DNA from: Sphingobacterium micropteri
GTDB lineage: Bacteria; Bacteroidota; Bacteroidia; Sphingobacteriales; Sphingobacteriaceae
DNA: 64,000 nt
Direction of reading: 5' to 3'
Assembly (NCBI RefSeq): GCF_014692515.1
Contig: NZ_JACOIK010000002.1
Location: 1-64,000, forward strand
The notes under the pieces were generated by a model. That model worked only from the letters and a program-made list of their open reading frames with translations, searched no databases and was not told the origin of the DNA. Positions 27,434-32,054 of the stretch are shown here, piece after piece (within the stretch, counting starts at the first letter, position 1; each line of letters opens with the position of its first letter). Made by a program: the position numbers and the translations under genes.

Positions 27434-28714
27434 ATGGCAACATCGATACCTTTAGCAGAGCGGATGCGCCCCAAGGGCCTTGCCGATTATATTGGACAGC
27501 GGCATATCATCGGCGAAGGCGCTGTCCTTCGGAACGCCGTAGAGCAGAAAAACATACCCTCCATGATCTTTTGGGGGCCGCCGGGTGTTGGTAAAACCAG
27601 CCTGGCCCTGCTGATTGCCCGCGAGCTCGGCCGACCGTTTTTCTCGCTGAGCGCCATCCAATCGGGGGTCAAGGATATCCGGGAGGTGATTGACAAAGCC
27701 GATAAATTATACCAGTTCAATCAAGAGCAACCGATCCTCTTTATCGATGAGATCCATCGCTTTTCCAAATCGCAACAAGATTCGCTGCTCGGGGCCGTGG
27801 AGCGCGGACTGGTGACGCTCATCGGCGCTACCACCGAAAATCCCTCCTTCGAGGTGATTTCCGCCCTGCTCTCCCGTTGCCAGGTGTACGTATTGGAGCA
27901 TCTCTCCGAGCAGGAATTGACCGCTATTTTGGAGCAGGCTATCGCGCAGGATAGTTATCTGCAGGAGCATCCCGTCCAGATCGAAGAATACGAAGCCTTG
28001 TTCCGCCTTTCCGGCGGAGACGCCCGCAAACTGCTCAATGTATTCGAGCTCGTGGTGCATGCTGCCCATGCGCAAAAGCAGCCCATCACCAATGCCTTTG
28101 TACTCAAACAAGTGCAGCAGAATATGGCGTTATATGATAAAACCGGTGAGCAGCATTACGATATCATTTCGGCTTTTATCAAGTCTATCCGGGGGAGCGA
28201 CCCCAATGCGGCGGTGTATTGGCTTGCACGTATGGTAGAAGGGGGAGAAGACCCTTCTTTTATTGCCCGTCGCTTGCTCATCCTCGCATCCGAAGATATC
28301 GGCAATGCCAATCCGAACGCCCTGTTGTTAGCCAACAATTGTTTTCAGGCGGTCAACGTGATCGGCTGGCCCGAATCCCGTATTATTTTAGCACAGACCG
28401 TAACCTATCTGGCCTCGTCGGCTAAGAGCAATGCCGCCTATGAAGCCATCGGCAAAGCCCAGGCCCTTGTACGGCAAACCGGCGATCTTCCTGTACCGTT
28501 ACACCTGCGCAACGCCCCAACCAAGTTGATGAAGGAACTGGATTACGGTACAAAATACAAATATGCACACAGCTACCCCGGCAACTTTGTCGAACAGGAG
28601 TTCTTTCCAGATAAAATCAGCGGCACCGTGCTCTACGATCCCGGAAACAACACTGCAGAAAATAAGATAAGGGAGTCGCTTCGCGCCAAATGGCGGGAGC
28701 GGTATCGCTACTAA
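27434..28714 (+). CDS. rarA: Replication-associated recombination AAA+ ATPase RarA (MgsA)
   Basis: A 426-residue clamp-loader-like ATPase that acts at stalled replication forks. It shows the N-terminal [21 protein letters not shown] box, Walker [13 protein letters not shown] (about residue 50), Walker [17 protein letters not shown] (about 97), sensor 1 [12 protein letters not shown], and the C-terminal tetramerisation region with [14 protein letters not shown] and [11 protein letters not shown]. Length is normal. The stop codon is directly followed by the left hairpin of repeat copy B, which may serve as its terminator. Confidence 0.96.
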
Positions 28715-29070
28715 TTTTCTTTTTTTCCCTCAAAAAAAGAAACAAAAAAACTCGTCGCTTCAGATATTTGAGATAGTGGATAGTACTAAGGATGGATTTC
28801 TACAGCCCTCAAATATCTGGATGCGACACCAAAGGTTAATAGGGGATTGTGCAATGGGAAACATAAGCGATCACTATTGACCAACGATTCCGCGGATTAA
28901 AACGACCTCGCATTGTTCCGCGGCCAGCTTTACGTAGGATATTCCGTTAAAAACAAAATACTGTTTGAGCGCAGCGAGTTTATTTTGTTTAGGAATAGAC
29001 AAGTAAAGGTAGCGGAACCATGCAAGTCTTGACTTTTTTGTTTCTTTTTTTGTCAAGAAAAAAAGAAAAA
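28715..29070. repeat. Hairpin-bounded interspersed repeat, copy B (long form)
   Basis: It starts right after the rarA stop codon. Left hairpin: 28715-28726 with 28732-28742. Inner stem: GTCGC 28754-28758 and a perfect 12-bp helix 28761-28772 with 28808-28819, then GCGAC 28823-28827. Long bulged hairpin: 28910-29023, outer helix GCAT-T-GTTCCGC with GCGGAAC-C-ATGC, further helices CTTTAC/GTAAAG and ATTCC/GGAAT, and a closing stem around the loop motif GAGCGCAGCGAG (28967-28978). Right hairpin: 29044-29051 with 29058-29065. This fills the 401-bp gap; no gene was found. Confidence 0.88.
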
Positions 29071-29079
29071 GAGAATGGT

Positions 29080-29087
29080 TATCTTTG
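29080..29087 (+). promoter_or_regulatory. -7 promoter element of the exonuclease gene
   Basis: TATCTTTG, identical to the box before rsgA, lies 28 bp before the exonuclease ATG and 14 bases after the right hairpin of repeat copy B. Confidence 0.55.
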
Positions 29088-29115
29088 TAAACTTTACAAC
29101 AAATAATAAAAAAGG

Positions 29116-29667
29116 ATGACCTTTACAGCAATAGATTTTGAACTCGCTACTGCAGCTTACACCAGCGTGTGTGCGGTCGGTATTGTAAAGGTGGAAAACG
29201 GTCAGGTTGTCGATCAGTTTCACAGTTTGGTGCGCCCACCGGGCAACCAATACATGTGGCAGACCACGAGAGTGCATGGTATCAAACCGAAAGATACCTT
29301 GACTGCGCCGACGTTTTTGGAACTTTTCCCGACGATAGCGCAATACCTTAAAGGTAGCCACATGGTCGCACACAACGAAAAATTTGACAGGGAAGTGCTG
29401 ATGAAGACGATGAAGCTTTACCAGCTCGATTATAATATTTTGCAGCTTTCACCTACCTGGGAATGTACCAGCGAGATCTATCGGCAAAAAGGATTTAAAC
29501 GAACCAAGCTGAGCATCTGTTGCCGTATTATGGATATTGAGCTTCACCATCATGATCCCCTGTCCGATGCCATGGCGAGTGCACAGCTTTACCTTAAGCG
29601 GGATCAGATTACCCATGCTTTAATAGAAAAGCACTTTCAAACACAAGAACAATCAGAACAACAATAA
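29116..29667 (+). CDS. DnaQ-type 3'-5' exonuclease
   Basis: A 183-residue single-domain DEDDh exonuclease. Exo I is AIDFELAT with Asp and Glu, Exo II lies in MVAHNEKFDREVL, and Exo III in HHDPLSDAMASAQLYL with the general-base His and final Asp. All four acidic residues and the His are present. Similar to the epsilon proofreading domain or a stand-alone RNase T/DnaQ-like trimming enzyme; no polymerase domain is attached, so the substrate is open. It precedes the first manC gene by 20 bp and could be read through into it. Confidence 0.88.
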   Translation: MTFTAIDFELATAAYTSVCAVGIVKVENGQVVDQFHSLVRPPGNQYMWQTTRVHGIKPKDTLTAPTFLELFPTIAQYLKGSHMVAHNEKFDREVLMKTMKLYQLDYNILQLSPTWECTSEIYRQKGFKRTKLSICCRIMDIELHHHDPLSDAMASAQLYLKRDQITHALIEKHFQTQEQSEQQ

Positions 29668-29687
29668 CAACCCGAGATGTAACCATT

Positions 29688-30680
29688 ATGGGAAAAATAG
29701 TAAACGTTATCCTATCCGGCGGAGTAGGTTCCAGGCTGTGGCCACTATCGCGGAAGTCGAAACCCAAGCAATATCTGCCTATTTTTAACGAGAAATCCTT
29801 GTTTAAACTTACGATAGAGCGAAACCAAGCCGTGTGCGAGCACGTCGTTTTGGTAGGCTCCGTGCAGAATATCGACCTGGCGAAAGAAGATTTGAAAGCG
29901 GTGTCACACGATATTATCGTGGAGACCGTACCCCGGAATACAGCCGCTGCGATCGCGTTTGCGGCGCTATCACGCGCGCCGGATGACATCCTGATCGTTA
30001 CCCCCTCCGACCACCTGATCGAAGGAGACGAGCAGTATTTACAGGCCATCAAGCGCGGGATCGAGTTTGCCAAAGCGGGTGCCCTCGTCACCTTCGGGAT
30101 AAACCCTACCCGGCCAGAGACGGGTTACGGGTATATTGAATCTGAAGGCAATAATGTGCTGTCCTTTCGGGAAAAACCCAACTACGATACGGCAAAAGAT
30201 TTCCTGAAAAGCGGGAACTTCCTCTGGAATTCCGGTATATTCTGTTTTAAGGCATCCGCCTATCTGCAGGAGCTGGAACGTTTCGATCCCAAGGTGTACA
30301 CAGCCTCAAAAGCCGCTTTTGTTGCCGCAAAAGACGGCGTGTTAGACGAGGAGCTGTCGCGCAAGATCCCCTCGAAGAGTGTGGATTACGCTATTATGGA
30401 ACGGAGTGATAGCATCAATGTCGTGCCATCCTTTTTCCATTGGTCAGATATGGGCTCTTTTGATTCCTTATACGATTATCTCATTTCGAAAGGACATCCA
30501 CAAGATGAGCATGGCAATATTGTTATTGGGGAAAGCCATAAACATACAGTCTTTCTTGGTGTACAGAACTGTGTAGTCGTTAATACAGCCGATGCGGTTT
30601 TGGTTTTGGACAAGGCATTTGCGCAAGATGTGAAACATGTTTACGAGCTATTAGAAAAAGAAAATTCTCCATTAATTTAA
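29688..30680 (+). CDS. manC: Mannose-1-phosphate guanylyltransferase, copy 1
   Basis: Makes GDP-mannose from mannose-1-phosphate and GTP. The 330-residue enzyme has the nucleotidyltransferase signature GGVGSRLWPLSR, then KPKQYL, VTPSDHLI, TFGINPTRPETGYGYIE and FREKP, and NFLWNSGIF. It is the short form without the isomerase domain. A close paralogue lies at 62701, so the polysaccharide locus is bracketed by two copies. GDP-mannose would feed Gmd and Fcl to give GDP-fucose, or mannosyltransferases. It is the first gene of the polysaccharide region. Confidence 0.96.
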   Translation: MGKIVNVILSGGVGSRLWPLSRKSKPKQYLPIFNEKSLFKLTIERNQAVCEHVVLVGSVQNIDLAKEDLKAVSHDIIVETVPRNTAAAIAFAALSRAPDDILIVTPSDHLIEGDEQYLQAIKRGIEFAKAGALVTFGINPTRPETGYGYIESEGNNVLSFREKPNYDTAKDFLKSGNFLWNSGIFCFKASAYLQELERFDPKVYTASKAAFVAAKDGVLDEELSRKIPSKSVDYAIMERSDSINVVPSFFHWSDMGSFDSLYDYLISKGHPQDEHGNIVIGESHKHTVFLGVQNCVVVNTADAVLVLDKAFAQDVKHVYELLEKENSPLI

Positions 30681-30820
30681 ATATTTTTAATTAATAGTAG
30701 CGTTTAAGTGACAATAATCGTTTCGTATTTTACAATATTGGCTGTATTATTGCAGCGTGATATCGTATATGATAAAGAGAGACGATCACCAGGGGAAATG
30801 TGTAAACAAAATTATTAATA

Positions 30821-31600
30821 ATGTCTTTTTGGAAAAATTTATTCAAACGGAATACAAAACAACATGAGTCTATTGGCCGATTAGCATGGATAGGGGTAGA
30901 TATGCACAACCATATCCTACCGGGTATTGATGACGGTAGCGAGAGCATAGAACAATCCTTGAAACTTATCCAGGGATTAAAAGAATTGGGGATTCAGAAA
31001 AGCATAGCTACACCGCACGTGATGCATAGTGTATACGATAACACACCGGCCACCATCAAAGATGCCCATACTAAACTAAAACAAGCCCTTACCGATAGCG
31101 GGATGAAGTTTGATCTTCAATATGCTGCGGAATACATGATTGATGATCAATTGGGAACATTAGTCCAGAACGAAAACCTTTGTCCGCTGCCGAATAGACA
31201 TGTCCTAATCGAAATGTCCTATTTAGCAGAATCCAAAGCACTTTTTCAGACAATTAAAGATATTCAGGAAAAAGGCTACCAACCCATCTTAGCACACCCC
31301 GAGCGTTATAACTATTACCACCAGAATTTTAAAGTATATAAAGAAATTAAAGACGCAGGCTGCCTATTACAGCTTAATCTGCTGTCCATTTCCCGTTATT
31401 ACGGAGAACCCGTGAAATCCATCGCCCTTACGCTGATTAAATCAGGAATGTATGATTTAGTCGGTACCGATATGCACCATGAGAAGCATCTCCATGCCCT
31501 TAAAATGGTCGCCGCGAAATACGATACCTTCGATTTGTTGAAAGACAACCCTATAAAAAACGCCACGATATTCGAGGATAGCCAAAAGCTAGCTATTTAG
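30821..31600 (+). CDS. CpsB/YwqE-type PHP-domain tyrosine phosphatase, copy 1
   Basis: A 259-residue PHP-fold metal-dependent phosphatase. It has the metal-binding DMHNHILPGIDDGS, TPHVMHSVY, VLIEMSYLAE, ILAHPERYNYYH, and DLVGTDMHHEKH. In other bacteria such enzymes dephosphorylate the tyrosine-rich tail of Wzc-type kinases, and a Wzc is encoded at 46608. A second version lies at 44944. The stop codon abuts the left hairpin of repeat copy C, suggesting transcription ends here. Confidence 0.93.
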   Translation: MSFWKNLFKRNTKQHESIGRLAWIGVDMHNHILPGIDDGSESIEQSLKLIQGLKELGIQKSIATPHVMHSVYDNTPATIKDAHTKLKQALTDSGMKFDLQYAAEYMIDDQLGTLVQNENLCPLPNRHVLIEMSYLAESKALFQTIKDIQEKGYQPILAHPERYNYYHQNFKVYKEIKDAGCLLQLNLLSISRYYGEPVKSIALTLIKSGMYDLVGTDMHHEKHLHALKMVAAKYDTFDLLKDNPIKNATIFEDSQKLAI

Positions 31601-32034
31601 TTTTTTCTTTTTTACCTCAAAAAAGAAACAAAAAAATCGTCACTTCGAATCTTTGAGAAGAGGGATAGTACTAAGAATGAGTTTTTACATGTCTCAAAAA
31701 TTCGGATGTGACCTTTAGTGTTAATTAGGGGTGGTGCAATAATGTATAGCGTGTTAACGCTTCTTTATCATGATAAAATTATAGAATTCTTTCCATTTCG
31801 AAAGCACGTACTAAATAAGGATATAAGATAGCACGGATGTAGACACCTACGCACGCGGCACGCGGGCAATAAGGGCCTTGCATTTTTTCGCGGTCATTTT
31901 TCAGAAGGCTATTCCGTTAAAACAGCATGATGTTTGAGCGCAGCGAGTTTCATGCTGTTTAGGAAGAGCGGATGAAAAATAGCGAAAACATGCTCAGCCT
32001 TGATTTTTGTCCCCTTTTTATCAAGAAAAAGGGG
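31601..32034. repeat. Hairpin-bounded interspersed repeat, copy C (longest form)
   Basis: It starts directly after the phosphatase stop codon. Left hairpin: 31601-31613 with 31619-31628. Inner stem: GTCAC 31639-31643 and CGAATCTTTGAG with CTCAAA-ATTCG (31693-31704), then GTGAC 31708-31712. After about 165 bases of extra sequence comes the long hairpin 31880-31993: outer helix GCAT-T-TTTTCGC with GCGAAAA-C-ATGC, then CATTTTTCA/TGAAAAAT, ATTCC/GGAA, and AACAGCATGA/CATGCTGTT around the loop GAGCGCAGCGAG (31936-31947). Right hairpin: 32011-32019 with 32026-32034. No gene was found in the gap. Confidence 0.88.
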
Positions 32035-32054
32035 AAAACAACTATCTTAGTAAA

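Follow-up and report, generated by a model that had tools for sequence, protein, structure and literature searches.

The window analyzed here is the whole stretch of 64,000 nucleotides at positions 1 to 64,000 of contig NZ_JACOIK010000002.1 from Sphingobacterium micropteri. At two places in it, the entire gap between two genes is occupied by an element (copies A and B), the most prominent part of which is a long bulged hairpin. A preliminary description made from the letters alone had reported two such hairpins with arms that differ between the copies and yet stay self-complementary, an identical loop, and a T-C mismatch kept in the outer helix. These observations were reproduced. A covariance model matched the + strand at 28903-29035 (copy A, 141.4 bits) and at 31873-32006 (copy B, 147.9 bits). 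Folded as RNA, 134-nucleotide windows around the hairpins were more stable than dinucleotide shuffles on both strands (z -3.8 to -6.1), and windows of 133/134 nucleotides folded as DNA gave z values of -3.3 to -5.3 against dinucleotide shuffles. The outer helices are GCAT-T-GTTCCGC / GCGGAAC-C-ATGC in copy A and GCAT-T-TTTTCGC / GCGAAAA-C-ATGC in copy B. The conserved 20-nucleotide loop, TGTTTGA-GC-GCA-GC-GAGTTT, lies at 28962-28981 and 31931-31950, respectively, and contains a potential mini-hairpin, GC-GCA-GC, at 28969-28975 and 31938-31944.

Neither hairpin stands alone; each forms the 3' portion of a longer element. From 5' to 3', this element comprises a left A/T-rich hairpin, a 5' hairpin with covarying arms, a linker containing a G-rich block, then the 3' bulged hairpin, and finally an A/T-rich end on the right. 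Both copies are on the + strand. Copy A starts directly 3' of the stop codon of a gene for an MgsA-type AAA ATPase (27434-28714; Pfam MgsA_C) with an inverted repeat as its left-end hairpin (28715-28750; TTTCTTTTTTT-loop-AAAAAAAGAAA, then CAAAAAAA). Its 5' hairpin, an inverted repeat at 28752-28827 (TCGTCGCTTC...GGATGCGAC, with the conserved center GGATAGTACTAAG...TTTCTACA), folded as DNA with a z value of -5.7. At its right end (29028-29069), a CTTGAC...GTCAAG inverted repeat is interleaved with the TTTCTTTTTTT/AAAAAAAGAAA hairpin, and an exonuclease gene follows downstream. 

Copy B is built in the same way. Its left A/T-rich hairpin (31601-31636) lies directly 3' of the stop codon of a CpsB/CapC-type gene (30821-31600), and its 5' hairpin is an inverted repeat at 31637-31712 that, folded alone as DNA, barely beat shuffled sequences (z -1.5; 15 of 200 shuffles were equally good). 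At the right end (31999-32037), CTTGAT...ATCAAG is interleaved with a CCCCTTTTT/AAAAAGGGG hairpin; the downstream gene is of the sugar-nucleotide dehydratase type. In both copies, the right end thus contains two inverted repeats, CTTGAY/RTCAAG and T-tract/A-tract, that overlap and exclude each other; both covary. An H-type pseudoknot was considered for this end and set aside because its third loop would consist of 0 nucleotides; more probably, the interleaved stems form one at a time. Among the 66 copies aligned below, regular expressions recovered the left end in 38 and the right end in 37, and the 23 copies with both ends spanned 340-456 bp (median 354). Elsewhere in the window, GAGCGTAGCGAG occurs at 676-687 without pairing arms and is flanked by two copies of TCATCAAAGATAA; by eye, it is not a member of the family.

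Copies in the genus and their covariation

The 12-mer GAGCGCAGCGAG occurs exactly only twice in the 4.85-Mb genome to which the window belongs (G000). A covariance model built from 27 copies detected at least 12 copies in this genome and found carriers in 22 of the 59 genomes searched, the window's own included. Copy numbers are lower bounds, the search having scored at most 56 candidates per genome. Heavily populated genomes were G007 (at least 11 copies), G013 (at least 19), G014 (at least 11), G020 (at least 26), G028 (at least 26), G033 (at least 20), and G035 (at least 9), and the remaining carriers held at least 1-5, so that numbers ranged from 0 to 26 within one genus. The arms of these further copies were still complementary. 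Sixty clade loci, a selection from the matches listed that left out G020 and most of G014 and G035, were fetched. The 27-sequence alignment (A3) omits four loci that were divergent in type or carried an insertion and 14 of 18 copies from G028.

Covariation was evaluated on 66 copies (62 distinct). Paired cells amounted to 96.7%, and 24 of the 32 pairs had changed on both sides. Double changes were seen in 295 cells compared with a shuffled mean of 88, none of 500 shuffles reached any of five covariation measures, and pairing dropped to 34-47% when the registers were slid by 1-3 columns. This alignment had been fitted to the model and is therefore biased toward the structure; a MAFFT alignment of 27 copies with a structure from RNAalifold also gave 24 of 32 pairs with double changes. 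The arms of the 5' hairpin, found by regular expression in 53 of the 66 copies, covary as well. In the 44 of 66 copies in which the right end was recognized for this count, the last base of CTTGAY matched the first base of RTCAAG without exception (25 T-A, 19 C-G). A process that keeps the arms complementary, be it selection or some other, is thereby confirmed, in line with the compensatory change proposed in the preliminary description.

Some copies depart from the common form. At L020 (G007:C5, ~51435), the 3' hairpin is split by a separate hairpin-like insert (ATGATGAGCATAATACAGATGCTCATCAT...), and both halves are recognizable. L180-L183 (G028:C1) form tandem units of ~540-580 bp. Their 3' hairpin and right end are the usual ones, but in place of the usual 5' half they have a long A/T hairpin whose sequence varies (GCTAGAAATTGTTATAAAAAA...TTTTTTATAACAATTTC); no genes, cassette-like or other, were seen between these tandem copies. 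L005, L012, and L014 (in G015, G008, and G025), apparently one locus, represent a diverged type, TGTCTGAGCGCAGCGAGTTT with GATTCATAT arms, and additional degenerate hairpin copies are present in the same gap.

Single loci differed between relatives. The rpsP-rimM gap was filled in G013, G014, G007, and G020, and also in G033 and G035, and was empty in G000 and six others (among 11 of 30 loci listed). The copy A locus was filled in G000, G013, G014, and G020 and lacked the element in G006; in G007 it held a short A/T hairpin that equals the filled site's two outer halves, and in G001 the upstream gene was a different one. At the copy B locus, five of eight genomes listed were filled, G007 retained a short remnant, and the more distant relative G006 had 30 nucleotides between stop and start codon and no element. 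In G035, the 3' hairpin and the linker of copy B were gone, at GGCCTT/GCCTTGA. A deletion between short direct repeats flanking a hairpin would fit replication slippage on a folded template.

These comparisons bear on the idea of a fixed host element, i.e. a bidirectional terminator, an insulator, or a chromosome-organizing site that is bound by a protein, inherited vertically, and immobile. In the window, both copies are preceded by a stop codon and followed by a promoter-like box (by eye), and comparisons of the copy A locus among G000, G013, and G014 showed 2-4 compensated pairs and no broken ones, as expected for such a site. Presence at the same locus, however, differs between relatives, copy number is widely variable within the genus, and a terminator has no need of a conserved loop. 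We consider a fixed host element improbable.

The A/T-rich ends are inverted, which raises the possibility of a miniature inverted-repeat transposable element (MITE). Were the element such a MITE, moved by a classical DDE transposase, the ends would be its terminal inverted repeats and the inner hairpins passengers. The ends of copy A are indeed inverted repeats that flank the element, and the derivatives in G007 are shortened; yet the ends are variable from copy to copy, the left one is often unlike the right one of the same copy (by eye), and it is the inner loop, not the ends, that is kept across phyla (see below). No clear target-site duplication was seen against the empty sites at the copy A, copy B, and rimM loci. 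A MITE of this kind appears quite improbable.

The hairpin tip, its spread across phyla, and the working form

Loops extracted from the model without forcing keep TGTYTGA, a 2-bp stem, 3 or 4 nucleotides, the stem partner, and GAGTTT. A Watson-Crick tip stem of 2 bp fits 57 of the 62 distinct copies (61 of 66 rows), five copies not being fitted: GC/GC in 35, CC/GG in 13, AC/GT in 8, and GT/AC in 1. Both pairs are G-C in 48 of these stems, and nine have one A-T and one G-C pair. The tip loop has 3 nucleotides in 50 copies, 46 of which are GNA, and 4 nucleotides in seven, six of which are GNNA (GTCA three times, GACA, GATA, and GTTA; the seventh is AATA); none is GNRA, and the three GTCA tips are apparently one locus in three genomes. 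The RNA counterpart of a DNA mini-hairpin of this type is less stable, and the flanking GA and GA are able to form sheared G.A pairs. For DNA mini-hairpins, Matsunaga et al. (PMC4686876) give the rule that the loop is GNA or GNNA, with any of the four bases as N, and that the stem has two or more G-C pairs. By its letters, the tip follows this rule, apart from the nine stems with an A-T pair.

A scan of GTDB contigs for TGTYTGAGCGNAGCGAGTTT returned at least 117 stretches, a number that counts the matches listed and is no census. The records are named as Bacteroidota, Proteobacteria, Firmicutes, Fusobacterium, Desulfo-groups, and others, and we take the phylum of each from its name. The arms beside the loop are unrelated between records, but the two arms of one hairpin complement each other: of 122 distinct arm pairs, 97 matched at eight or more of 10 positions compared with 3.1 expected on re-dealt partners. 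The loop was present 1-61 times per genome in 29 scan-derived genomes, and the reversed pattern 0 times. The scope of the preliminary description, Sphingobacteriaceae, was thus too narrow. Several Bacteroidota records share flanks, GGCCT...AGCCTTGATTTTTTG followed by an interleaved A/T hairpin, and Luteimonas and Herminiimonas records have comparable A/T ends (both by eye).

Among tips from 28 genomes of this cross-phylum set, only six had a first stem base other than G. Five were compensated as AC..GT (four from G073, one from G080), and one, TC..GC from G064, was uncompensated. A reading of the loop as mirror-symmetric (TTTGAGCG-NA-GCGAGTTT) was abandoned because the variants preserve Watson-Crick pairing of the 2-bp stem instead of mirror symmetry.

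Arrays were also noticed outside the genus. L344-L347 in G078, the genome of Parabacteroides massiliensis record L091, hold hairpins of two sequence types, set back to back or in threes. They recur in the order minus, plus, plus at distances of 233-788 bp, reminiscent of paired REP (repetitive extragenic palindromic) elements.

The preliminary description had left open whether RNA or single-stranded DNA is the folded form. RNase P RNA, taken as a control from 22 genomes of the genus, had G.U in 12.7% of canonical cells and in 21.1% at variable pairs. The corresponding values for the element were 2.3 and 2.6% with the stored structure, 3.9 and 4.8% with RNAalifold on 66 copies (A4), and 6.1 and 9.0% with RNAalifold on 27 copies (A3); pairs less than 80% canonical or less than 70% occupied were left out for element and control alike. 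In the cross-phylum arms, 826 of 888 cells were Watson-Crick, seven G.T, and one C.A, counted on 111 of 122 arm pairs after removal of 11 with fewer than six of eight Watson-Crick positions, which raises the paired fraction. Because G.U and G.T are so rare, the element keeps Watson-Crick pairing more strictly than RNase P RNA. As far as sequence comparison can tell, DNA rather than RNA is favored as the working form.

A structured non-coding RNA, either a dispersed small RNA gene or an untranslated-region element, would explain the strong covariation by RNA folding and would suit the long, complex architecture. In the 3' hairpin, G.U outnumbers A.C (41 versus 11), which points to folding of the + strand and is what such an RNA would produce. 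Set against this are the low G.U frequency relative to RNase P RNA and the 4-nucleotide tips, all seven of which are GNYA or AATA rather than GNRA (three of them apparently from one locus). Nor is there a fixed position relative to genes. With neighbors defined as simple open reading frame (ORF) calls of at least 90 amino acids, and seven of the 60 clade loci lacking one or both of them, the element ran in the same direction as its neighbors in 18 cases (++), lay between divergent genes in 14 of 53 (-+), between convergent genes in 13 (+-), and was opposed in 8 (--); this mixed orientation is ill suited to a leader, a 3' untranslated region, or a terminator. No conserved promoter was seen by eye. 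Rfam searches at the gathering threshold (window and 18 loci) found nothing on the element, and searches by E-value (hairpin region and eight loci) yielded sub-threshold matches only. We regard an RNA as unlikely. Open-licence literature containing the 12-mer (20 papers, 19 titles listed) or a 15-mer of the loop (four papers, three titles listed) was, by these titles, unrelated, which is weak as a sign of absence; as far as these searches reach, the family is undescribed, as the preliminary description had suggested.

A proposed folded DNA strand and its putative reader

We propose, with a probability of roughly 0.57, that the element is an intergenic, interspersed, non-coding DNA repeat of mobile type that acts as a folded single strand and is read in trans. 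Each hairpin would be the 3' module of an element that inserts between genes, and the working form would be one folded DNA strand. Its tip, in which a GNA or GNNA turn closes a 2-bp stem flanked by GA...GA, would be an extraordinarily stable DNA mini-hairpin that a conserved internal loop (TGTYT/GTTT) separates from the arms; the helix below it, with bulges and the T-C mismatch, would be free in sequence provided that pairing is kept. A putative widespread trans-acting factor, either a single-stranded DNA recombinase/transposase or a structure-specific DNA-binding protein, may recognize the folded + strand once it is single-stranded, and this recognition might lead to spread, tandem arrays, and upkeep of the structure. 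The data establish the family itself, its copy number, covariation, and tip rule, its presence or absence at individual loci, and the shortened derivatives; DNA as the working form, mobility, and the mechanism of spread are what we infer here.

Candidates for such a factor were sought among Y1 transposases and neighboring genes. Y1 (PF01797) had no match in seven of the eight genus genomes with at least nine copies (G000, G007, G013, G014, G020, G033, and G035) and was present in the eighth, G028. The loop, with up to three mismatches, was not found within 1.5 kb of Y1 at any of 30 loci fetched from 44 matches in cross-phylum carriers, nor at any of 30 fetched from 91 in relatives, mostly non-carriers. 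Contig ends truncated nine of these 60 loci. Two relatives rich in Y1, G002 (12 matches) and G034 (19), several of them at contig ends, hold at least one and at least two hairpin copies, respectively. An all-against-all comparison of 2,628 ORFs near the loop at 117 loci revealed no specific partner gene among the 15 largest clusters. Most large clusters overlap the hairpin itself; the one other cluster of five loci represents the ABC-transporter ATPases, a common family, and another cluster includes a class II tRNA synthetase. Inspection by eye of the paired and arrayed copies in Parabacteroides L091 and in G028 showed no transposase-like ORF.

These data also bear on a REP/REPIN-type element moved by Y1 (RAYT/TnpA-REP), possibly of the Bacteroidetes subclass 2.6 with its atypical secondary structures. 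The intergenic, multicopy occurrence and the logic of a single-stranded DNA hairpin are shared with such elements, and a Y1 match of some kind is present in 16 of the 18 cross-phylum carriers searched. The absence of Y1 from most heavy carriers, the few copies in Y1-rich genomes, and the lack of proximity to the Y1 loci fetched speak against it. The element also has no GTAG foot: a foot GRC...GYC stands on a hairpin of 135 positions, whereas REP/REPIN elements are defined by a 20-40-nucleotide palindrome with a GTAG/GGAG-like foot. According to parts of PMC6006769, REP subclasses 2.6 and 3 are likewise without GT[AG]G, so the foot alone does not set the element apart from these two. Movement by Y1 is, in our view, highly improbable.

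Several observations weigh against a mobile, trans-read DNA strand. No cognate factor was found in the search of Y1 and neighbor genes, other recombinase and transposase families lying outside it, and the target-site duplication that an insertion might leave was not clear at the three loci compared. The 66 copies include same-locus copies from different species and are not independent, and the arms might be homogenized by gene conversion or template switching. Mean identity (21 copies) was 0.82 at the same locus, 0.84 within a genome, and 0.81-0.82 across genomes. Copies within a genome are thus hardly more alike than copies between genomes, and no recent burst is evident; same-locus copies are no more alike either, so sites must have been rewritten by compensation in place, conversion, or re-insertion. 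At the rimM locus, each comparison had broken pairs (1-4) beside compensated ones (0-7). Most letters of the cross-phylum loop were preset by the search pattern, tip variants in that set were few, with four of the five compensated ones from a single genome, and the control for G.U is a single RNA family. The evidence for the strand is contradictory. The 5' hairpin has no excess of G.T (17 versus 26 A.C, excluding a fixed T.G column of 42). Of 54 Sphingobacterium copies, 37 had a positive GC skew in the orientation of the element (p 0.009), but no more than 40 of the 102 cross-phylum loci did (p 0.037, opposite direction; 102 of 117 loci used, those with mixed orientation or short flanks dropped). 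In G028, 10 clusters were co-directional with replication and four opposed, assuming an oriC near dnaA. Because the skew tests disagree between the data sets, we make no claim of a replication-strand bias.

One head across phyla combined with free arms suggests that a shared reader probably exists or existed. More tentatively, and with somewhat less than even odds, the elements may form a pan-bacterial class, mobile or host-maintained, of folded single-stranded DNA with a GNA/GNNA head, GA flanks, and free arms that is served by one shared reader outside Y1/RAYT. If so, a protein pull-down with the DNA hairpin would offer a direct route to this reader. The results also suggest a simple sequence test for distinguishing single-stranded DNA structures from RNAs in covariation screens, namely the G.U frequency and GNRA versus GNNA tips.

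Comparison with known systems

In the parts of PMC3116915 and PMC6006769 considered, REP, BIME (bacterial interspersed mosaic element), and REPIN sequences are intergenic, multicopy, imperfect palindromes that are thought to act as folded single-stranded DNA and to move non-autonomously. To that extent the present element resembles these repeats and their RAYT partners. It differs in being longer (a 135-position hairpin, ~340-460 bp as a whole), in lacking a GT[AG]G foot, and in combining a conserved 20-nucleotide loop with free arms and cross-phylum spread; in the genus, most heavy carriers lack a Y1 gene, and at the Y1 loci fetched the element is not adjacent. REP elements are tied to a cognate transposase, whereas here one head is common to records of Proteobacteria, Firmicutes, Fusobacteria, and Bacteroidota.

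ERIC (enterobacterial repetitive intergenic consensus) elements are imperfect palindromes of ~127 bp between genes with a conserved sequence; to our knowledge, they have no transposase and are confined to gamma-proteobacteria. The present element, in contrast, has free arms and a tip conserved across phyla. Integron attC sites keep their structure while the helix sequence varies and are read as a folded single strand; their loop is variable and their core sites are conserved. The element reverses this arrangement, its loop being conserved, and no cassette-like genes were seen between its tandem copies in G028. Weinberg et al. reportedly described skipping-rope and other candidate RNA hairpin motifs, some over several phyla, in 2017, and part of PMC8501573 lists skipping-rope motifs among phage non-coding RNAs. 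The loop studied here had six matches on viral contigs, and the element gave no Rfam match at the gathering score, in a copy of Rfam not confirmed to hold skipping-rope.

The closest likeness of the tip is to the extraordinarily stable DNA mini-hairpins d(GC-GNA-GC) of Hirao and colleagues, whose loop and stem rule it fits. In the sections of PMC4686876 concerned, the mini-hairpin is a chemical motif for aptamers; here, it would be the conserved head of a natural repeat family and, if the proposed reading is true, a natural use of an ultra-stable DNA mini-hairpin.

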